In this document: piece by piece, positions 6,759 to 16,253 of the stretch | Layout of the letters: every line of letters starts with the position of its first letter | Position numbering within the stretch: position 1 is the stretch's first letter | IMG/VR virus record: IMGVR_UViG_3300017757_000226 | Location: 1-20,022 of that record | Length of the DNA stretch: 20,022 bases | Source of the DNA: a virus | Reading direction: 5' to 3' (one strand) | Program-made: the position numbers and the translations under genes | Notes under the pieces: generated by a model | The model's database searches: none | What the model was told of the DNA's origin: nothing | The model's input: the letters and a program-made list of their open reading frames with translations, nothing else

Positions 6759-6913
6759 TTTTTATTTCTATCTTTTAATTTCATATAAATATTCATCCCT
6801 GTATATAGTATCGTCATTATTAATACTACAGTTTGTAACGCGGGGTTAATGTTAGGCATTACTGAGAATGCCACCGCTCCGACATTTATGCCGTAAATTT
6901 TTAAGTCGTTCAT
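6755..6913 (-). CDS. 52-residue membrane protein in the lysis cassette
   Basis: This small gene was read by eye between the holin and endolysin genes. Its ATG (6913-6911) overlaps the holin stop as ATGA, and its TGA overlaps the endolysin start as ATGA, so both ends are fixed by coupling. The protein begins MNDLKIYGINVGAVAFSVMP and then has a hydrophobic stretch at about residues 25-44 (ALQTVVLIMTILYTGMNIYM), ending with a basic tail (KLKDRNKK). One clear TM helix and a weaker one at about 8-20 are expected. I recall similar short 'INVGA...' membrane proteins beside lysis genes in marine phages. Holin, antiholin or pinholin-like roles are possible, but which one is not shown. Confidence 0.85.
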   Translation of the reverse strand: MNDLKIYGINVGAVAFSVMPNINPALQTVVLIMTILYTGMNIYMKLKDRNKK

Positions 6914-7326
6914 TTTTGATGTTTGCTGTTTCCAAATACTTTTTCAACTCCACGCGATCCAAAATAACCGCCAATTACAATTGTAAGTAAACCAGTTATT
7001 GAATCTAAAGGGTAGCCCATATACCAGCCGGCTACATAACTTACTGTTAAAAAAACTAAAGTTAAAGGACGAACATTTGCCGCAAGCCACGATCCTGAAG
7101 TTGCATCCGCCACCCAGCGTCTTGTTGTCCCGTCTATTTCAGCTCTTTCAATATCTAATTTTTTAAGCGCAATTTTTTTATCCCCCTCTGACATATCAGA
7201 GCCGCCTATAATAGCTTGTATTACGGAGCCTACAGGCGTATCACCTGCTATTGCACCAACAACGTTAGGTATTTTTTCTAATAAAAACTTCCCAACGCCG
7301 GTGTCTTTAAAACGTTTTTTAGCCAT
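6910..7326 (-). CDS. Holin, 3TM (GTA-type) family
   Basis: A 138-residue protein with an N-terminal amphipathic/hydrophobic segment (about 16-41), a charged linker (DMSEGDKKIALKKLDIERAE) and then the pattern SWLAANVRPLTLVFLTVSY followed by a second hydrophobic helix (about 106-123, SITGLLTIVIGGYFGSRGVE). The 'SWLA..RP.T' stretch before the paired membrane helices is characteristic of the 3TM holin family found in gene transfer agents and many phages. It would permeabilise the inner membrane to let the M15 endolysin out. It leads an overlapping cassette (ATGA to the 52-residue protein, which in turn overlaps the endolysin). The start sits after an A/T-rich leader without a Shine-Dalgarno sequence. 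Confidence 0.88.
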   Translation of the reverse strand: MAKKRFKDTGVGKFLLEKIPNVVGAIAGDTPVGSVIQAIIGGSDMSEGDKKIALKKLDIERAEIDGTTRRWVADATSGSWLAANVRPLTLVFLTVSYVAGWYMGYPLDSITGLLTIVIGGYFGSRGVEKVFGNSKHQK

Positions 7327-7348: not shown

Positions 7349-7912
7349 TTAACAAGTTCCCTGTGGCGTGTCGGTGTGTGCGCCATAACCCGAACTAGTA
7401 ACCAGCAAACATTGCGTCCCGCCAAATCTGCTCGATGTAAATAATACATTCAAACCTATAGGATTGCCAAACCCTCCGGGAACATACGAGGATGCTGTAA
7501 ACCCACCACCACTGTTAAAATAACCAAAAACGCCGCTTGTTGTATTCCAAGTAGTTGTATAATAAGTAGTATATGTTGTGGATGCGTAGTTTGGTGTACT
7601 AGTCCCAAAAGTTGTCGTAGTTGAGCGAGTTGTATTAAAACTAGTGTTAAAAGTTGTTGTGGTCGATAAAGTCGTATTAAAAGTAGTAGCGAAAGTTGTA
7701 GTTGTACTTTTAGTGGTACTAACCGCATAGGTAGAAGACCACGAAGTGTTAAAAGTAGTATACGGCGTCGATACTGTAGTATTTACCGCTGAGTTAGTGC
7801 TGCGACTAGTGGACCTAATCGTGTTAGTATATAAGGTTGTATTAAAGGTCGTGTTTACTTGCTCAACAAACGTATTAAAAGAGTGTATTTTAGACCAGCC
7901 TATCTGTCGCAT
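7349..7912 (-). CDS. Thr/Asn/Ser-rich repeat protein with C-terminal Gly-rich domain
   Basis: A 187-residue protein. Residues about 20-125 are dominated by Thr, Ser, Asn and Phe, with a 14-residue period best seen at 69-105 (STTTTFATTFNTTL, STTTTFNTSFNTTR, STTTTFGTS...). Residues about 126-187 change character to Gly, Phe, Ser and Val (GVFGYFNSGGGF... ending DTPQGTC) and look like a small beta domain, perhaps a receptor-binding tip. No signal peptide is seen. It is likely a tail-fibre or other surface virion protein, since a second protein with the same repeat lies beyond the adjacent glycosyltransferase gene and the long tail fibre is nearby. The Thr-rich stalk is a plausible O-glycosylation target for that enzyme. 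This is inference, and the function is not known. Confidence 0.85.
   Translation of the reverse strand: MRQIGWSKIHSFNTFVEQVNTTFNTTLYTNTIRSTSRSTNSAVNTTVSTPYTTFNTSWSSTYAVSTTKSTTTTFATTFNTTLSTTTTFNTSFNTTRSTTTTFGTSTPNYASTTYTTYYTTTWNTTSGVFGYFNSGGGFTASSYVPGGFGNPIGLNVLFTSSRFGGTQCLLVTSSGYGAHTDTPQGTC
7598..7708 (-). repeat. 42-bp (14-codon) Thr-rich tandem repeat
   Basis: Encodes residues 69-105 of the 187-residue protein: two full 14-residue units and part of a third, each beginning STTTTF. Degenerate copies extend outward to roughly 7538-7855. The reading frame and protein pattern are kept while the bases vary, so the repeat is conserved at protein level. Confidence 0.8.
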
Positions 7913-7933
7913 TATTTATTTTTTAATTAGTTA

Positions 7934-8854
7934 TCATTCACAATCTTTACAGGGTTTTTTTTCCTGTTTTTCTTTAATAATATACCATTCTTTATGATTG
8001 TTTCTATATTTCTGGCTGTAATCTAAAAACTTATTTAAAGTTTTTTTCCAATTTTTATCAATTATTGGATTGATAATACCAGATTTATAATTTGATAGAA
8101 TTCTATTTATAACTTCATCACCTAGATTTTGATTATCAAATAAAATCCTGTTCAAGCTATAAAATGAGGATTTATGTATTATGTGGTGGACATCTATAGG
8201 CTCAATAGGTATACCTAAAGCAACACCATAAATAGCTGACTCACTTAAATGAGTTGTGTATACTTTTTTTGCTTTATACAGATAGTGATAAAGGTCTATA
8301 TCTCTTGGAAGCAAAATATTTTCTTTAAATATATCTTGCAGCTCCCCTATGGTAGCAAAGTTACAAACCGGGTGAGGTTTAAACCAAACGTTACCTTCAT
8401 GCTTTTTAGCTATATGCTTAAGCTTATTAAGACAAACATGCTCTTTAATTTTATTTGACCCTGGTAAAACCACAATATAATCTCTAGCAGGGAAATTTTT
8501 AAAATCGCTATTTCGGTTTTGATACTTGTTAACCGTTTTTTCTTTTATATTATTACGTAAAAACTCAGCAAAATCTAATTGCTTATCTGAGCTTTCGTAA
8601 AACGCGTCATCAATCATTTTATCTCTAAAAGCTAATGATAACGGCTGAAACATAAAATTTCGTGCAAACTCAGTATAGCCCATGGTTTTAAAATAAGGAG
8701 GCTCATTTGCTATTACATCGTAGCTATGTTCAATACCTAATTTGGTTATTTGCTCTAGCGCATATTTTTCAACATGCTCAAGGTGTTCTATTGCTTCACT
8801 TTTTTTTAAGTCTCTAAGCCTATCATTTAAAACATCGGGGTGGAACATTTCCAT
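7934..8854 (-). CDS. Glycosyltransferase-like protein (GT-B, capsule-synthesis type)
   Basis: A 306-residue protein whose C-terminal half matches the pattern of capsule polysaccharide synthesis/export glycosyltransferases. It has a beta strand ending in a Gly-containing loop (YIVVLPGSNKIKEH, about 126-139), then WFKPHP at 157-162, then YTTHLSESAIYGVALGIPIE at 199-218. The last resembles the family's donor-binding 'S...E.A...G.P' segment. The N-terminal half is helical and probably the acceptor half. The protein ends with Lys-rich residues and CKDC. Such enzymes transfer sugars such as Kdo or sialic-acid-like donors. Acceptor and donor here are unknown. It lies between two Thr-rich repeat proteins, which suggests virion protein glycosylation, but modification of host surface glycans to block superinfection is an alternative. 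Confidence 0.75.
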   Translation of the reverse strand: MEMFHPDVLNDRLRDLKKSEAIEHLEHVEKYALEQITKLGIEHSYDVIANEPPYFKTMGYTEFARNFMFQPLSLAFRDKMIDDAFYESSDKQLDFAEFLRNNIKEKTVNKYQNRNSDFKNFPARDYIVVLPGSNKIKEHVCLNKLKHIAKKHEGNVWFKPHPVCNFATIGELQDIFKENILLPRDIDLYHYLYKAKKVYTTHLSESAIYGVALGIPIEPIDVHHIIHKSSFYSLNRILFDNQNLGDEVINRILSNYKSGIINPIIDKNWKKTLNKFLDYSQKYRNNHKEWYIIKEKQEKKPCKDCE

Positions 8855-8888
8855 AATTATATTTAATTTTTATATTTAATTTTTTATA

Positions 8889-9248
8889 TTAAGAGCTGTA
8901 AAAAGTTGTTGATCTAAAAACATCTTGACTAGTACTTACGCTAAAAGTTGTAGTAGGCGTATTTACTGTAGTATTAAATGTTGTTGTTGTACTGTAGTTA
9001 GTAGATCTTAAAGTATTAGTATTTAGTGATGTATTAGTACTTAAATTTGTAACGTAATTAGTATTAAATGTTGTCGTTGTTGATGCTGTAGTATTTACAC
9101 TAGTTGCAAATGTTGTAGTAGTAGACTTACTCGTGCTTACGCTAGTCGAAAATGTTGTGGTAGTCGAACGGGTTGTATTTGGTGTAGTATACCACAGCGT
9201 AGTTCGGGTTGTTGAGTGCGATGTGGTTTGTGAGGTATTTGGTACCAT
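8889..9248 (-). CDS. Thr/Ser-rich repeat protein
   Basis: A 119-residue protein made almost wholly of a degenerate 14-residue repeat, for example STTTTFSTSVSTSK (28-41), STTTTFATSVNTTA (42-55) and STTTTFNTNYVTNL (56-69), continuing more loosely to about residue 110. There is almost no other domain: a short N-terminus (MVPNTSQTTS) and a short C-terminus (QDVFRSTTFYSS). It shares the repeat with the 187-residue protein on the other side of the glycosyltransferase. A fibrous beta-rich stalk is likely, with threonines in regular rows. It is followed after about 34 bases by the glycosyltransferase start and preceded by fibre-associated genes. Function unknown. A fibre or adhesin component that may be glycosylated is inference. 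Confidence 0.83.
   Translation of the reverse strand: MVPNTSQTTSHSTTRTTLWYTTPNTTRSTTTTFSTSVSTSKSTTTTFATSVNTTASTTTTFNTNYVTNLSTNTSLNTNTLRSTNYSTTTTFNTTVNTPTTTFSVSTSQDVFRSTTFYSS
8919..9167 (-). repeat. 42-bp (14-codon) Thr-rich tandem repeat
   Basis: Encodes residues 28-110 of the 119-residue protein. The first three units are regular 14-mers starting STTTTF; later units are degenerate, with one unit apparently broken by an insertion around residues 80-86. Same family as the repeat at 7598-7708. Confidence 0.8.
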
Positions 9249-9263
9249 TTTGTTAAAATTTAA

Positions 9264-9617
9264 TTAGCTAAAATTTCCAACATAATTAACTAAAACTATT
9301 GTTGTACTTACCACCAAATAACTTAATATTGATACATCTCCGTTATCAGTCTGAAAAACAATATTATCGCCATTAGGAGTTTTAAATTGAGAAGGCAATG
9401 CACCTGGGGTGGTGGTTCCTCCATTTTCTATTATTATTGTTCCAGTTTGACCCACTTGTTCACTGCCCACAGTTGGCACAATTGTCCAAGCCCCGGTTGG
9501 TGCGATTTTAAAATTAATGTTTTTCGCAAAGTCTATTGCAAACTGGTTACTCCCGTTTATTGATACCGTAGTTGGTATCATTGAGGTCATGTTTTGATCT
9601 ACTCTGGTTAAAGCCAT
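9264..9617 (-). CDS. Small fibre-associated structural protein
   Basis: A 117-residue protein with no charged helices and a strand-rich pattern (NFKIAPTGAWTIVPTVGSEQ, then VGQTGTIIIENGG). It ends with the hydrophobic strands SYLVVSTTIVLVNYVGNFS. This 'GQ.GTI.I.N...PG.LP..(Y/F)KTPNG' pattern recurs, in my memory, at the C-terminus of tail-fibre or tip proteins of marine phages. It would then be a separate fibre tip or fibre-binding protein. It is downstream of the 1345-residue fibre and the 99-residue gene, and upstream of the Thr-rich proteins, all on one strand. Exact function is not known. Confidence 0.8.
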   Translation of the reverse strand: MALTRVDQNMTSMIPTTVSINGSNQFAIDFAKNINFKIAPTGAWTIVPTVGSEQVGQTGTIIIENGGTTTPGALPSQFKTPNGDNIVFQTDNGDVSILSYLVVSTTIVLVNYVGNFS

Positions 9618-9928: not shown

Positions 9929-12900
9929 TTAATTTGTAGTGGTTATAGTTTCAACGTGTGCACCTTCAGGAAAATTACCTGCACTTAATGTTAGAGTGCT
10001 ACCTGAAACTCCGTAATTAGATTTACTCTGATAAACACCAGAAACAAATAAATCAACAAAGTTTTTATTTGTTGGGGTTGCTCCTAAAGCTATGGAATTA
10101 GTGGTAGCGTTAGCGACAGAAGAAATTTCAGCCACTGTTTTACTCACAGCAGTGACAGCTACAGTCTGAACACTTCCATCTCCAAACTCAATACCATTTG
10201 CCCCTACAACAATCTTACCACTACCATTTGGTGTAATGTTAATATCTCTATTAGATGCAGATACAATACTATGTGTTACAACATCTAAGTTGCCACCTAA
10301 CTGTGGAGACGAGTCGTCTGATACATTTTGAATACCTGCGCCAGCAAGTGAACTAACAGATGCAAACGCAAGGTTTCCAGAACCATCTGTTTTAAGAACT
10401 TGTCCAGCATTACCGTCTGCTTGCGGGTGTGAAAGTCCATCAAGAATTACTTTACCAGAACCATTTGGTGTAATGGAAATATTACCATTTGATGCAGAAA
10501 CAATTGAGTTGCCGTTAACATCTAAATTGCCACCAAGTTGTGGGGTTGAATCCGCTGCTACATCTGCAATACCAGATGCAGAAACAACAAGATCTATTGT
10601 TCCATCTAAATCTTGATATGTTGCAGTTATATTTGTTTCAGTATTACTACTAAACATTGCACCGACTGTATCTTGAATTACTTCAGATAAGTCAATATCA
10701 GCAGAACCGTTAAATGCAACACCATGAATATTCCTTGAGGTTGCTAGGGTTGTAGCGGTGCCTGCGTTTCCAGAAGTATCTTGGGTTCCGCTAGCATTAA
10801 CTCCCGGCAAATTTATATCAGCAGTACCATCAAAAGATACTCCACCAATATTTCTTGCGGTTGCAAGTGCAGTTGTAGTATCTGCAACAACACCACTTAA
10901 ATTGTTTATAAATGTGTTTGTAACTCTACTATCAATTGCAGAATTTACTCTTGCGGTTGTATGATAAAGATTACTGGAGCCTTCTGATAAATTATCTGTA
11001 TCAAACCCGGTTAAATTTCTTGTATTGAACACAGTTTTCCATCCCATATTAGAATGAGCTGAACACTGATAATATAAAGTAGTAGGTGTTGACTCTGTTG
11101 GTATAATTTGTGTATAAGAGCCAGAATTTCCAGGTGCAGTTGAACCGTGATTGTTAGTTACACCCGCTGTATAAGCTGTTGTTTTTGCCTCATCATAATA
11201 AAACAATAGAGGATGATTTGCGTTAGTTGAGTCTGACTGGTCAAATTTATAAGTGTTACCCACTGCAAAGGTTATTTCAGGGGATTCAATACCATCTATC
11301 GCATATCCTGATGAACTTCCAGATCCGTTAGCCGGATGAGCAGCAGTTTTAGTTACAACAGTAACAGCCATTGTTTTTGCTGCATCACTATGTTTTGTTA
11401 GTATTTTAGAGTCTAAAATTAAATCATGATCAAACTCTATTTTATCTGAAGTAAGCCCTCCTAAGTAGGAGCTAGAATCTGTCTTAGCTCTGTTGCCCAT
11501 TCCAGTATGGTTGGGGCAATAATAATATAATGATGAATATTCGTAGTCTCCAGTTATGTCAATGTACGCTCCAGCTTGACCGGGAGTTCCCACTGCATTT
11601 GTGTTAGCCGTGTATGCTCCAGTTCCTGCTCCTTCTATGTTTTCACTAAATTGGAATGCATGGCCGGTGTTTGTACTATCACTTACATCAAACCTGTATG
11701 TATCGTTTGCAGATATAACAAGAACAGGCGCTTCTCCTCCGTCTACGTAGAAAGCATTGCCCCCTCCCGTCTTACTTCCTACGGTAACAGTATGGTATTT
11801 GTTACCAGAAGATGTTGAAGTATTAAACACGGCTTTCCAACCCATGTTGCCATGATATTGGCACTGGTAGTATAAAGCATTAGGCGTAAGTTCGGTAGGT
11901 ATAATTTGTGTATAAGAACCACTTTGCCCAGGTGTTCCATTTGTAGTTACTCCTGCTGTATAAGGGTTATTCCTTGCTTCGTCTTTATAAAATTTTAATG
12001 GATGCCCTAAGTTGCTTGAATCGGACTGATCAAATTTGTAAGTATTACCTGCAGCAAAAGTTAATTCAGGTGATTCTATACCGTCTATAGAGTATCCAGA
12101 AGTGCTCCCAACCCCATGTGCAGGGTGAGCAGCTGTTTTAGTAACGACAGTGGTTGTCATAGATTTTACACTATTACTATGCTTCGTTACTATTTTAGAA
12201 TTTATTACTAAGTCTTGATCTAGCTCTAGCTTAGCTGAGGCTAAATCACCTATACTTGTTGCTAATTGATAAAATGTTGAACCATCATTTGTAAATTCCC
12301 ATTTGTCAGACGTTTCATTCCATCTAAAAGCTACATCTGTTCCTGATCCTCTGTTAATTTCAATTCCTGCGTTTTCAGTGGGCGAAACACCTCCTCCTAA
12401 ATCACTATTAAGAGTTATAATAGCGTCTCCGATATTAAGGTCTGTAGAGTTGACTGTTGTGGTAGTACCTGAAACAAGTAAGTTACCCTGTACAGTTACG
12501 TCATTAGTAAATACTTCCGCTTGATCTTTTCTTGCAAATTTAGGGTCTGCATAATCAAACACGTGATCTCCCGTCACTAGATTGGCACTACCGTTTGCTA
12601 CAGCCGCAGTGGATAACCCTATTGTTAAATTACTTGAACTAGGCGTAAGTGTGATATTGGTACCCGCAACAAGGGTTACATCATCAGTTGTTGAATCGCT
12701 TCCGGACAACCGTATTATTGCATCGTTGCCACTGTCATGCACCGTAAGATCATAAGTTGTGTCATTTGCTGCAATTTCTCCAAGACCGCTTATAGTAATG
12801 TTACTACCTGCTGATAAAGCCGCAACCACGTTTGTTGTATCCGTGACGTCGGCACTTGTTTCAATATTAGTAAGCTTTGTTCTCTCTGCACTGGTAATTA

Positions 12901-13966
12901 TAGCGCCTGATCCGGCGTTTGTTATATCACCTAGTTCTGTAACATTATGACCACTAAGTACGGTTACATCAGTTGGCTTATTCGATAAAGTGTTATAATC
13001 ATGAGCTACATTAACCTCCGCTCCTGCCGCAATACCATTTAGCTTAAGCAGTAAAGCATTTGTAAAATCTTCTGACGATAAACTTTTACCTGCTACAGAA
13101 TTCTCTTTAGCATCAAGTGCCGCTTGTAAACCAGGTATGCTACTAATACCTAAAGAAGACAAGGTAGCTGCATTTGCCTGACAGAAGTTTACAACTTCTC
13201 TTAATGTATCTAATGCGGGTTTGTCTGCGGCATCGACATCTAACAAAGCTGTTAGTCCATCTATTAAGTCTTTTAATACCTTCCCTTGAGCAGCTGACAA
13301 AGGAACATCTGCAGCCGTAGAGGTTACATTATTTATGACATCCGCATGTAAAAGCGCGTTAGACAGGTTTGTTCTTTCTGCGCTAGTTATAATTTGCCCA
13401 GATCCTGCGTTTGTTACATCACTAAATTCGGTTACAGAATCATCGGAAAAATCCTGATCATAAAGTGCTGAATAGTTTGCAACAAAATATTTTTCTCCTA
13501 CAGTTAAATTACCATTAGTACCTCTTGGTGTAACAGTTAATGTTCTATATTCCCCGCTACCTGAACTTTGTATTGCAGTAACTTCAAATATACCGAAGTT
13601 ATTTAGGTTATCTTTTTTACTAATTTTTATAAAATCATTAGCTGTATTATCTAAATACTCTGCTAAAGACAAGCCTGAGGAATCTTTAACACTTATAAAA
13701 ATTTGGTTTATAGCGCTAAAAGCCGCGGTTGTCGCGGTACCTTCATTTAAATTTAATATGCCCTGTGGCGATGAGCCCGGTGCAACATAATCTGTAAATT
13801 GAAAGGTAGACCCGTCAAACGCTTGTACTAGCCCGCCGTCATTTACAAGACCCAGCACTGACTGAATTGTAAAGTTTTTAGTAGCGCCTGTTGCGGAGTC
13901 TGTCCCTAATAACTTATCTGCTGAGTTCAGCGATGAATCTTGATCATAAGATGATATTCTAGCCAT
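9929..13966 (-). CDS. Long modular tail fibre with three cupredoxin-like repeats
   Basis: A 1345-residue protein, the longest in the window. The N-terminus (about 1-45, LNSADKLLGTDSATGATKNF) is of the fibre anchor type. Residues 181-210 and 345-373 are near-identical modules containing ITSAERT. Residues 220-330 carry the tail-fibre pattern 'PLSAAQGKVLKDLID' and 'NKPTDVT'. Residues 603-716, 724-828 and 864-982 are three related beta domains, each keeping a His, then Cys-x2-His-x2-Met (H655/C702/H705/M708; H769/C817/H820/M823; H918/C968/H971/M974), which looks like a type 1 copper-site arrangement. The C-terminal third has classic fibre repeats (LATARNIGGVSFDGTADI) and a duplicated PQLGGNLDV module at 1142-1177 and 1221-1256. 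The start overlaps the upstream gene by 8 bases. It is probably the main host-contact fibre. Confidence 0.9.
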   Translation of the reverse strand: MARISSYDQDSSLNSADKLLGTDSATGATKNFTIQSVLGLVNDGGLVQAFDGSTFQFTDYVAPGSSPQGILNLNEGTATTAAFSAINQIFISVKDSSGLSLAEYLDNTANDFIKISKKDNLNNFGIFEVTAIQSSGSGEYRTLTVTPRGTNGNLTVGEKYFVANYSALYDQDFSDDSVTEFSDVTNAGSGQIITSAERTNLSNALLHADVINNVTSTAADVPLSAAQGKVLKDLIDGLTALLDVDAADKPALDTLREVVNFCQANAATLSSLGISSIPGLQAALDAKENSVAGKSLSSEDFTNALLLKLNGIAAGAEVNVAHDYNTLSNKPTDVTVLSGHNVTELGDITNAGSGAIITSAERTKLTNIETSADVTDTTNVVAALSAGSNITISGLGEIAANDTTYDLTVHDSGNDAIIRLSGSDSTTDDVTLVAGTNITLTPSSSNLTIGLSTAAVANGSANLVTGDHVFDYADPKFARKDQAEVFTNDVTVQGNLLVSGTTTTVNSTDLNIGDAIITLNSDLGGGVSPTENAGIEINRGSGTDVAFRWNETSDKWEFTNDGSTFYQLATSIGDLASAKLELDQDLVINSKIVTKHSNSVKSMTTTVVTKTAAHPAHGVGSTSGYSIDGIESPELTFAAGNTYKFDQSDSSNLGHPLKFYKDEARNNPYTAGVTTNGTPGQSGSYTQIIPTELTPNALYYQCQYHGNMGWKAVFNTSTSSGNKYHTVTVGSKTGGGNAFYVDGGEAPVLVISANDTYRFDVSDSTNTGHAFQFSENIEGAGTGAYTANTNAVGTPGQAGAYIDITGDYEYSSLYYYCPNHTGMGNRAKTDSSSYLGGLTSDKIEFDHDLILDSKILTKHSDAAKTMAVTVVTKTAAHPANGSGSSSGYAIDGIESPEITFAVGNTYKFDQSDSTNANHPLLFYYDEAKTTAYTAGVTNNHGSTAPGNSGSYTQIIPTESTPTTLYYQCSAHSNMGWKTVFNTRNLTGFDTDNLSEGSSNLYHTTARVNSAIDSRVTNTFINNLSGVVADTTTALATARNIGGVSFDGTADINLPGVNASGTQDTSGNAGTATTLATSRNIHGVAFNGSADIDLSEVIQDTVGAMFSSNTETNITATYQDLDGTIDLVVSASGIADVAADSTPQLGGNLDVNGNSIVSASNGNISITPNGSGKVILDGLSHPQADGNAGQVLKTDGSGNLAFASVSSLAGAGIQNVSDDSSPQLGGNLDVVTHSIVSASNRDINITPNGSGKIVVGANGIEFGDGSVQTVAVTAVSKTVAEISSVANATTNSIALGATPTNKNFVDLFVSGVYQSKSNYGVSGSTLTLSAGNFPEGAHVETITTTN
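10199..10306 (-). repeat. Tail-fibre module repeat, copy 2 (PQLGGNLDV type)
   Basis: Encodes residues 1221-1256 of the fibre. It is a direct repeat of the module at 10436-10543: both begin PQLGGNLDV, share SIVSASN and end with ITPNGSGK. The change between them is mostly in a short loop (NGN versus VTH). Confidence 0.85.
10436..10543 (-). repeat. Tail-fibre module repeat, copy 1 (PQLGGNLDV type)
   Basis: Encodes residues 1142-1177 of the fibre and is repeated at 10199-10306. Between the two lies a spacer with the segment LKTDGSGNLAFASVSS, as seen in many beta-structured fibres. Confidence 0.85.
11021..12160 (-). repeat. Three cupredoxin-like domain repeats in the tail fibre
   Basis: Three copies at 11819-12160, 11483-11797 and 11021-11377. 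The first and third are close relatives: both hold TVVTKTAAHPA, GYxIDGIESPE, GNTYKFDQSDS and SGSYTQIIPTE, and their DNA is also similar. The middle one is more divergent but keeps the same order of His, Cys, His and Met. This looks like duplication of one domain, with the outer pair duplicated more recently or homogenised. Confidence 0.85.
12848..12934 (-). repeat. Tail-fibre module repeat, copy 2 (ITSAERT type)
   Basis: Encodes residues 345-373 (LGDITNAGSGAIITSAERTK...SADV). It repeats the module at 13337-13426, with the same TNAGSG and IITSAERT core. Confidence 0.8.
13337..13426 (-). repeat. Tail-fibre module repeat, copy 1 (ITSAERT type)
   Basis: Encodes residues 181-210 (FSDVTNAGSGQIITSAERTN...). 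Its partner is at 12848-12934. The two copies are separated by about 400 bases of unrelated fibre sequence. Confidence 0.8.
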
Positions 13967-14414
13967 CTAAATTACTTTTGTTAAATTTATTTATTGCCTG
14001 AGCGTATACCTTATCTATATAAGTTTCTTTTCGCATAATTTTACTTCTACGAGCTGACTCAGGTAAGTTTTCTTTTCCCACTAAAATTCTATATATACGG
14101 GCTATTAATCTTTGCCCTTTAGAACTAACTGTATATTTATTGTGATCACCAAGTCTTCCATTACCTTTATGAACTTTAGTTAACCACTCTTGTGACTGTA
14201 GTCTATAAAAACGCATTTTATCCCAACTGTAATAAAACGTGCCGTCTTTAAAATCTTGTATTGTAAAGTATTTGATAGGATCTAAATAAAATAGTAATTC
14301 AAGGTCTGAAATAGAAATATCGTTTTCTTTACAAGCCCATCTTGAAACAAGCCTGTAGTATTTAAGAAAATCAACTTTTAATTCACCTCTTTCTACAAAA
14401 TCTGAACGATTCAT
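13959..14414 (-). CDS. Winged-helix-like protein downstream of groES
   Basis: A 151-residue protein. Residues about 35-115 read like a MarR-type winged helix: a helix (ISDLELLFYLD), a second helix (FTIQDFKD), a recognition-helix-like stretch (WDKMRFYRLQSQEWLTKVHK), a wing with a GRLGDHNKYTVS turn, and a following helix (SKGQRLIARIYRILVG). The C-terminus is basic (ARRSKIMRKE). Its ATG overlaps the GroES stop (TAATG), and its end overlaps the tail-fibre start by 8 bases. A role in transcription, or in DNA packaging as a small terminase, is possible, as some of these use winged-helix DNA-binding domains. The function is not shown. Confidence 0.8.
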   Translation of the reverse strand: MNRSDFVERGELKVDFLKYYRLVSRWACKENDISISDLELLFYLDPIKYFTIQDFKDGTFYYSWDKMRFYRLQSQEWLTKVHKGNGRLGDHNKYTVSSKGQRLIARIYRILVGKENLPESARRSKIMRKETYIDKVYAQAINKFNKSNLDG

Positions 14415-14674
14415 TATAAAACTATAATTACATCTCTTTCTTCTATAACTTTAAAAATAGTATCATCTATTTCTAAGTTATTACCAGCATGACGATCATA
14501 CCAAATAGTATCTTTTTCATCTATGCCATTAACGTTTGTACCGGTAGAAATCACTTTACCCTGCCGGTATCTTATGTCTTCCCTATGGTTTTCCGCTAGT
14601 AATAGCCCACCTTCGGTTTTTTTTAGGTCTTCTTTTAACTCTTCTATAACTATATATTTACCTATCGCCTTCAT
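14414..14674 (-). CDS. groES: Co-chaperonin GroES
   Basis: An 86-residue protein with the GroES 10-kDa chaperonin layout. The N-terminal strand is IGKYIVIEELKED. The mobile loop is KKTEGGLLLAENHRE, with GGLLL in place of the E. coli GGIVL that binds GroEL. The roof/barrel part follows (RQGKVISTGTNVN, then DEKDTIWYDRHAG), ending FKVIEERDVIIVL, which matches the family's 'ilresDilavl'. It would cap GroEL to make the folding chamber. The gene lies after groEL and overlaps its end by 17 bases, so the two are co-translated, but in reversed order compared with bacterial groES-groEL operons. It is somewhat short (about 95 residues is usual). The strong mobile loop suggests a working partner. Confidence 0.93.
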   Translation of the reverse strand: MKAIGKYIVIEELKEDLKKTEGGLLLAENHREDIRYRQGKVISTGTNVNGIDEKDTIWYDRHAGNNLEIDDTIFKVIEERDVIIVL

Positions 14675-16253
14675 AATCTCTGATGTTTGAAATTACACAA
14701 TCGGTTGACAATATAGTTGTAGCAACAGAAACAGCGTTAACAAGTGCTGATTTTGTAACAAGTAAAGGATCTATTATACCCTTTTTAATCATATCAACAT
14801 TAACCCCTTTTGTTACGTCTACACCTCTACCCCATTTAGAAACTTTTATATCTTCAGGTTTAAACCCTGCGTTTGAAAGTATTCTTATGTAAGGTGAAGC
14901 TAGTGCCACCTTTAATATTTGAAGTCCAGTGTATTCGCCTTGATTTAAAGTATCTTGCCAATCAGCTGCCCCTGCAAATAAAAGAGCAGTACCACCTCCT
15001 GGTAGTATTCCTTCTTTTTTAGCAGCTCGAACAGCGTGTATTGCATCATCAACGCGATCTTTCTTTTCTGAAACTTCTACTTCGGTATCGCCTCCTACAT
15101 AAACTATAGAAACACCTCCGTTTAATATCGCTAACCTGCTTTCTAAGTGCGGGCGCATTACGTGGTGTTTTTCGTCTGCTAATTGTTCTTCTAGGTATTT
15201 GACCCGTTTGTCTACTTCTTCAGATGTTTCTTCTATTGCTATAGTAGTACCATCTGTATCTATGATAGCCTTTTTGGCTGATCCAAGCACTTCAGGGGTG
15301 ATATTGTCAAGCGAATCTCCTAAATTTTCATCTAATACAGTAGCACCCGTAAGAAGGGCAATATCATCCAGTATGTCTTTTCTTTTTAAACCGAAAGACG
15401 GGGGATCGATAATATTGCAACGTATATTGCCCTTTACGTGATTCATTGCTAAAGCAGAAATGATCTGGTTGTCGCACGGGGCAATGAGCAGTAGCGATTT
15501 GTTTTGTTTAATCGCATACTCCAATAGCGTTTGAATTCGTCGGATGCTTTTAATTTCAGAAGCGCATAAAAATATTAATGGCTTTTCTAACTCCGAGACT
15601 TCCTTCTCTTTATTGGTATAAAAATGTATACTTTTACTTATAGACTTAACATGCGTTCCGTCTACAGTTTCAATATACGTTTCATTAGTTGGAGATGACT
15701 CCATTGTTACGACACCGTTGTCGCCAGCCGCTTCAAAAGCCTGGGCAATAAAATTGCCAAGTGACTCGTCATTGTTACACGATATAGTTGACACTTGGTT
15801 CAATCTTTTATTATCTACAGGCAAAGCTTTCTTGTCTAGGAAATTCACGACATGTTTTACAAATTTCTCCATACCGTTTCTTACGTCACGGAAAGAATGC
15901 TCATCTCCATTTAATTCAAAATAGTTTTTAATAATACTTTGTGCAAGGACGGTAGATGTTGTTGTACCATCTCCTGCTTTTGTTGCTGTCTGTCTAGATG
16001 CTTGCCGTAGCATATTTACACCTAAGTTTTCTATAGGGTCATCTAGATTTATATAGTTAGCAACTGTAACCCCATCTTTGGTTACGTGTGGGTTTCCAAA
16101 ATCATCTTCAAGCACAACTGTTCTACCTGAAGCGCCTAGCGTTGTAGCTACAGCCTCAGACAGTTTGTCTATGCCACGAATTAATTTATCTTTAGCCTCT
16201 TTACCGAAGCTTAAATTTTTTACAATCTTTGGTGATCCAAATTGTACAGCCAT
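14658..16253 (-). CDS. groEL: Chaperonin GroEL (phage-encoded)
   Basis: A 531-residue 60-kDa-type chaperonin. ATP site: TLGASGRTVVLED at about 38-50, TKDGVTVA at 58-65, DGTTT at 95-99 and the hydrolysis aspartate equivalent D403 in VDDAIHAVRAA, with PGGG at 418-421. All main nucleotide residues appear kept. The apical domain (about 195-380) is more divergent: the usual DRGYxSPYF stretch is replaced by SIHFYTNKEKEV, although the LLLIAP segment and later parts are recognisable. The C-terminal Gly-Gly-Met tail is absent; the protein ends NIRDYEGDR. It should fold phage proteins with the downstream GroES. The start follows an AT leader sharing TTAAATCAAAT with the leader at 18,946. Confidence 0.97.
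   Translation of the reverse strand: MAVQFGSPKIVKNLSFGKEAKDKLIRGIDKLSEAVATTLGASGRTVVLEDDFGNPHVTKDGVTVANYINLDDPIENLGVNMLRQASRQTATKAGDGTTTSTVLAQSIIKNYFELNGDEHSFRDVRNGMEKFVKHVVNFLDKKALPVDNKRLNQVSTISCNNDESLGNFIAQAFEAAGDNGVVTMESSPTNETYIETVDGTHVKSISKSIHFYTNKEKEVSELEKPLIFLCASEIKSIRRIQTLLEYAIKQNKSLLLIAPCDNQIISALAMNHVKGNIRCNIIDPPSFGLKRKDILDDIALLTGATVLDENLGDSLDNITPEVLGSAKKAIIDTDGTTIAIEETSEEVDKRVKYLEEQLADEKHHVMRPHLESRLAILNGGVSIVYVGGDTEVEVSEKKDRVDDAIHAVRAAKKEGILPGGGTALLFAGAADWQDTLNQGEYTGLQILKVALASPYIRILSNAGFKPEDIKVSKWGRGVDVTKGVNVDMIKKGIIDPLLVTKSALVNAVSVATTILSTDCVISNIRDYEGDR

Follow-up and report, generated by a model that had tools for sequence, protein, structure and literature searches.

The viral DNA analysed here (IMG/VR record IMGVR_UViG_3300017757_000226, positions 1 to 20,022; the whole stretch of 20,022 nt is called the window) carries on its minus strand a gene for a predicted glycosyltransferase enclosed by two genes for threonine-rich (Thr-rich) repeat proteins. 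An original prediction made from the sequence had described a GT-B-like protein between two Thr-rich proteins with a 14-residue repeat, and three minus-strand open reading frames (ORFs) were found accordingly. Protein A (8889..9248, minus strand) has 119 aa and 40% Thr; its N-terminus, MVPNTSQTT, resembles the MPNTS start frequent in Thr-rich proteins adjoining the enzyme (TRP2 type). The enzyme (7934..8854, minus strand) comprises 306 aa, matches PHROG 26179 (function unknown) and includes WFKPHP and YTTHLSESAIYGVALGIPIE exactly. Protein B (7349..7912, minus strand), with 187 aa, 29% Thr and a Gly-rich C-terminal tail, starts with MRQIGWSK, as do Thr-rich proteins upstream of the enzyme in relatives (TRP1 type). 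Neither protein A nor B has a recognised domain, and they are the sole window ORFs of at least 60 aa above 14% Thr.

Linkage of the enzyme with Thr-rich genes

Relatives were collected in alignment-based scans of IMG/VR, which returned 96 and then 308 relatives, the best 80 being retained per scan. A Thr-rich ORF was located at most 200 bp upstream of the enzyme in 98 of 120 loci and within 2.5 kb in another 10 (in total 108/120), while upstream DNA was too short to judge in 11. The lone enzyme locus without such an ORF, L039, has upstream DNA that looks like a frameshifted Thr-rich gene. After dereplication to 75 loci, 61 showed the adjacent arrangement, seven a distance of up to 2.5 kb, six too little DNA and one no Thr-rich ORF. 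The reverse search used a DNA pattern for TTTT[F/Y]NT repeats that was blind to the enzyme; 80 loci were analysed, and the enzyme followed downstream in 48 of the 50 Thr-rich loci having at least 1.5 kb of downstream DNA. Two loci, L153 and L200, possess Thr-rich genes amid baseplate-type genes and no enzyme in the available DNA. The linkage is thus nearly obligate in both directions, and the gene order, whose conservation in viral databases had been proposed as a check, recurs in well over 100 related loci.

The pair is also present in cultured phages. In the Caulobacter phages Cr30, Quill_5.2 and BL199, representing three lineages, a Thr-rich protein is encoded immediately upstream of a distant relative of the enzyme; Cr30 has T4-type neck and baseplate genes, and Quill_5.2 and BL199 are autographiviruses. 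A tblastn search with the Thr-rich protein of L007, run with low-complexity filtering, gave no match in the phage collection. Scans of genome contigs yielded one enzyme relative, L332, on a contig of a Flavobacteriales metagenome-assembled genome that reads as phage. The original prediction knew of no described system with exactly this arrangement, and in the open-licence literature searched by titles and abstracts no prior account of the pair was found.

Enzyme fold, sugar-donor genes and repeat design

The AlphaFold2 model of the enzyme reached a pLDDT (predicted local distance difference test) of 88 and a pTM (predicted template modelling score) of 0.86. In VIA-align the top match was KpsC (Z 10.7, 226 aligned residues, root-mean-square deviation 3.9, 9% identity), near behind which came WbbB (Z 9.8), the polysialyltransferase 5wcn (Z 9.8, 133 aligned) and KrkA (Z 8.9). 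The GT-B matches from Foldseek were weaker and broader, KpsC reaching E 8.8e-4 and UDP-GlcNAc 2-epimerases ranking just above it. The predicted fold is therefore GT-B, with the Kdo (3-deoxy-D-manno-oct-2-ulosonic acid) transferases of capsule and lipopolysaccharide (LPS) as nearest folds, in agreement with the capsule-synthesis-like character first proposed. When solved structures were searched with sequences of the enzyme family, nothing usable emerged; the window enzyme matched neither Capsule_synth (PF05159) nor any Pfam glycosyltransferase model, and a Capsule_synth family search of the window record found none.

Conservation was counted over 124 dereplicated enzyme relatives. KPHP (residues 159-162; 8369..8380, minus strand) corresponds to the (K/R)XHP motif, with K159, H161 and P162 present in 124/124; (K/R)XHP has been described as the motif for binding cytidine monophosphate (CMP) common to CMP-sialyltransferases and retaining Kdo transferases (PMC12887879). 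PGSN (residues 131-134; 8453..8464, minus strand), with G132 and N134 invariant (124/124), occupies the region of the QXXXD motif, which bears the nucleophile of retaining Kdo transferases (PMC12887879, PMC10148158); this correspondence was drawn from sequence context and published motif descriptions. K110-Y111 is likewise invariant in all 124, as is, in the alignment of relatives, the acidic Asp46 (8717..8719, minus strand; 124/124), a candidate general base.

Genes for the synthesis of a candidate donor were met in a survey of 133 dereplicated gene neighbourhoods. In L152 and L168 the gene immediately past the enzyme is KdsA (Kdo-8-phosphate synthase); in L110 it is the second gene past the enzyme, and the order there is Thr-rich gene, enzyme, 2-oxoglutarate (2OG)-Fe oxygenase, KdsA, a CxxCxxCC protein, a cupin, a KdsB-methyltransferase fusion and a 101-aa gene, followed by a gene that reads as tail sheath. 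In this locus KdsA scored 373 bits against TIGR01362 (NCBIfam cut-off 314) and KdsB (CMP-Kdo synthetase) 186 bits against TIGR00466 (cut-off 155). In L253 the Thr-rich gene and enzyme are followed by a run of apparent sugar-enzyme genes and then by KdsA and KdsB; altogether, KdsB exceeded the cut-off in two enzyme-bearing records. When 81 phage KdsA loci were compared, 17 of the 21 with the enzyme had Thr-rich genes, as against none of the 60 without it (Fisher p 4.7e-14). What is gained over the original prediction is the likely donor class: judged from KXHP and the linked KdsA and KdsB, a CMP-sugar, probably Kdo.

Autocorrelation of Thr at lag 14 amounted to 0.30 and 0.36 in the two window proteins, so that the 14-residue period is real; it is a single instance of a broader even-lag rule, the strong Thr lags in relatives being almost all even (4, 6, 10, 14, 16, 20 and further). 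These derive from 4-residue xTx[R/K/aromatic/T] and 6-residue xTxTx[F/Y/W] units, and in relatives Thr is fixed at offsets -8, -4, -2, +2 and +6 relative to the aromatic residue. In the window proteins the contrast of even and odd lags exceeded that of residue shuffles (p ~0.006 each). Over 260 long Thr-rich ORFs, Thr makes up 98.9% of Thr+Ser at the fixed positions and 61% at intervening ones; the longest Thr-rich ORF among the DNA examined measures 2,639 aa. Codon usage for the repeat Thr is approximately that of the remainder of the window, and therefore the pattern is maintained at the protein level. N-linked glycosylation at the NTT/NTS sequons, which the original prediction had offered beside O-linkage, is not favoured, as Asn is one among several residues at variable odd positions, whereas Thr is fixed; no search aimed at an oligosaccharyltransferase was made.

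Peptidase_S74 is a chaperone domain in phage tail fibres and spikes. In relatives, C-terminal regions of the Thr-rich proteins contain Peptidase_S74 in 14 of 36 scanned, LamG in two of 36 and intein/Hint in several; such domains are typical of proteins that process themselves or bind carbohydrates. Some Thr-rich proteins upstream of the enzyme thus carry domains for tail-fibre maturation. When the Caulobacter and DLP6 phage regions were searched with a profile of the NYVGNF-type C-terminal domain, nothing matched, and a fibre-tip domain shared with these phages is thus unsupported.

Further genes in the window and at related loci

The minus-strand order in the window is tail fibre, two small genes, protein A, enzyme, protein B, holin and M15 endolysin, beyond which the genes read as terminase and portal. 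The tail fibre (9929..13966, minus strand; 1345 aa) matches PHROG 30742 (E 1.5e-93). One of the small genes (9264..9617, minus strand) encodes a 117-aa protein ending in NYVGNFS, and a similar C-terminus precedes Thr-rich genes at other loci. The holin of the lysis region (6910..7326, minus strand; PHROG 3427, E 2.7e-13) is the gene next to protein B. GroES-like (Cpn10) and GroEL-like (Cpn60) genes are situated inside the phage structural region (14414-16253), and L067 likewise possesses a GroEL-like gene, two genes past the enzyme. Between 18950 and 20022 the G+C content drops to ~15% and short ORFs turn to the plus strand, perhaps marking a control region ahead of early genes or an assembly joint.

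Other genes accompany the pair elsewhere. In L007 (4941-5981) and five more loci a twitch-type radical S-adenosylmethionine (SAM) protein stands between Thr-rich gene and enzyme and may act on the Thr-rich protein. L033 (8953-10305) and L034 (8954-10312) encode a protein whose GT25 domain precedes a 2OG-oxygenase-like region that scores under the Pfam cut-off, a combination recalling L230 of giant viruses, and GT4-like and GT29-like proteins neighbour the pair at some loci. In a distant clade (L226, 1810-2754, and 30 more loci) the gene immediately past the enzyme encodes a protein of ~315 aa that matches nothing in Pfam. Two Thr-rich genes enclose a methyltransferase-like protein whose C-terminal part resembles an intein (L097, 3744-4793; ~20 loci) or a 188-aa protein that had no match (L101, 4833-5396; ~20 loci). 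In L247/L248 (DLP6, record ends) a big unannotated open frame upstream of the enzyme reaches both record ends.

Proposed donor and acceptor, and competing explanations

Taken together, we regard it as fairly probable that the Thr-rich protein is glycosylated with a CMP-sugar, most likely Kdo. The phage enzyme would transfer Kdo, or a similar CMP-activated sugar, onto threonines of a virion fibre. We infer the Thr-rich protein to be the acceptor because of the gene linkage, and we also infer the O-linkage, the choice of Kdo over other CMP-sugars and the location in the virion. The gene linkage supports the earlier proposal that the enzyme may glycosylate Thr-rich stalks, more probably in its O-linked form than in its N-linked one. 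Phages devoid of kdsA and kdsB, as is the window fragment, would depend on CMP-Kdo made by the Gram-negative bacterium that they infect.

Several observations weigh against this explanation. Many of the 120 loci are near-duplicates, as are many of the 21 enzyme-bearing KdsA loci near-identical. Most enzyme-bearing records lack KdsA, which was detected in 12 of 44 searched, or 6 of 38 when six known carriers are left aside, and neither kdsA nor kdsB occurs in the window fragment. No family member reaches the 20-bit cut-off of Capsule_synth, the best being Quill_5.2 with 19.8. In Vibrio phage D484 (KVP40-type) and in Stenotrophomonas phage DLP6 the enzyme relatives stand without a Thr-rich repeat protein beside them, so the enzyme family may have other acceptors; in DLP6 the ORF upstream of the enzyme encodes a large Ser/Thr/Asn-rich protein. 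Together with L153 and L200 these two are the exceptions to a linkage that is nearly obligate both ways, and hence a partner standing alone in related phages, which would have spoken against a joint function, was mostly not encountered. For protein B, AlphaFold2 (pLDDT 29) was uninformative on shape, and the strict preference of Thr over Ser could be caused by beta-strand structure as an alternative to glycosylation. Finally, QXXXD is absent at the matching place: the strand before KXHP ends LPGSN-like, no conserved Asp/Glu stands beside it, and a Q...D occurs upstream in 23 of 124 relatives, the 12 examples inspected sitting elsewhere.

As QXXXD is absent, the enzyme would not simply be KpsC-type. 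The presence of KXHP and the lack of QXXXD suggest instead that it transfers a CMP-sugar by another mechanism, which may be an inverting one; inversion is the likelier guess, given the missing QXXXD nucleophile and the invariant acid Asp46.

A different CMP-sugar of the sialic, legionaminic or pseudaminic acid type, attached to the same Thr-rich acceptor, is the strongest competing explanation, which we consider unlikely. KXHP is shared by CMP-sialyltransferases, the best fold matches include the polysialyltransferase 5wcn, several KdsB-like matches in enzyme-bearing records fall under the kdsB cut-off, and a pseudaminic acid transferase of A. baumannii is a KpsC homologue (PMC12887879). The linked genes that do reach family cut-offs are, however, KdsA and KdsB of the Kdo pathway.

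Phage genes altering host surface glycans are known, and with LPS and capsule Kdo transferases, which act on glycan acceptors, as nearest folds, the enzyme might modify host LPS or capsule (receptor masking, superinfection exclusion) and merely be clustered with fibre genes in a host-interaction module. This appears improbable in view of the two-way pairing with Thr-rich proteins, the position of the enzyme beside fibre, lysis or neck genes and the absence of Thr-rich genes from the 60 enzyme-free KdsA loci; moreover, some loci add radical SAM, 2OG oxygenase and GT25-oxygenase genes, kinds able to modify proteins. A non-catalytic assembly factor or chaperone of the Thr-rich fibre with a retained GT-B fold would be compatible with obligate pairing too, and the weaker fold matches include GT-B proteins that assist the export of serine-rich-repeat adhesins (6lnw, 5vae), but the invariance of KXHP, Asp46, K110-Y111 and G-x-N in 124 relatives and the linked sugar-donor genes make it very improbable.

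Glycosylation of the Thr-rich protein by the phage enzyme has its closest known counterparts in phage virion glycosylation and in systems of a repeat protein with a dedicated transferase. With the retaining beta-Kdo transferases KpsC (GT107), WbbB (GT99) and KrkA (GT140) the phage enzyme shares the nearest GT-B fold and HP/KXHP, and KdsA/KdsB linked in some phages point to the same donor; it differs in the missing QXXXD nucleophile, in sequence similarity under family cut-offs and in its place beside Thr-rich proteins, not capsule or LPS genes. KXHP and the fold of the C-terminal domain are alike in CMP-sialyltransferases and the polysialyltransferase (GT38, 5wcn), whereas the phage-linked sugar genes above cut-off are KdsA/KdsB and not sialic acid genes. 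Serine-rich-repeat adhesins of Gram-positive bacteria have dedicated GtfA/GtfB transferases. Both systems comprise a long repetitive protein of hydroxyl residues beside its own transferase, with O-glycosylation proposed, but the phage has Thr repeats, a fibre instead of a wall adhesin and a CMP-sugar-type enzyme instead of GtfA/GtfB.

According to Freeman et al. 2023 (as cited in PMC12619734), mycobacteriophage virions are glycosylated, with glycans at the C-terminal ends of tail-tube and capsid subunits and phage transferases proposed; here the proposed acceptor is a dedicated Thr-rich repeat protein. The GT25-lysyl hydroxylase L230 of Mimivirus glycosylates viral collagen on hydroxylysine (PMC9614988), and offers a precedent in that the modified substrate is a repetitive fibrous protein of the virus itself; similar, too, is the GT25 plus 2OG-oxygenase-like gene near the pair in L033/L034, in contrast to the Thr repeats and CMP-sugar-type enzyme described here. 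A precedent for Kdo on Ser/Thr of a protein is the flagellin transferase CbMaf of the Maf type, which in E. coli took Kdo as a substitute donor (PMC11339370); enzyme family and acceptor differ.

A wider generalisation, that many unrelated phages build very long Thr-rich fibres to which a dedicated phage enzyme attaches Kdo, some with CMP-Kdo synthesis of their own, is plausible, albeit held more tentatively. If true, it would provide a Kdo-glycoprotein that occurs in nature, a viral fibre resembling mucin, and a function for PHROG 26179 and for the giant Thr-rich repeat proteins of environmental phages. A testable sugar and enzyme would thereby be named, with viruses coating their own fibres via the LPS sugar pathway, and the cultured phages of Caulobacter vibrioides CB15 permit immediate testing of the idea.
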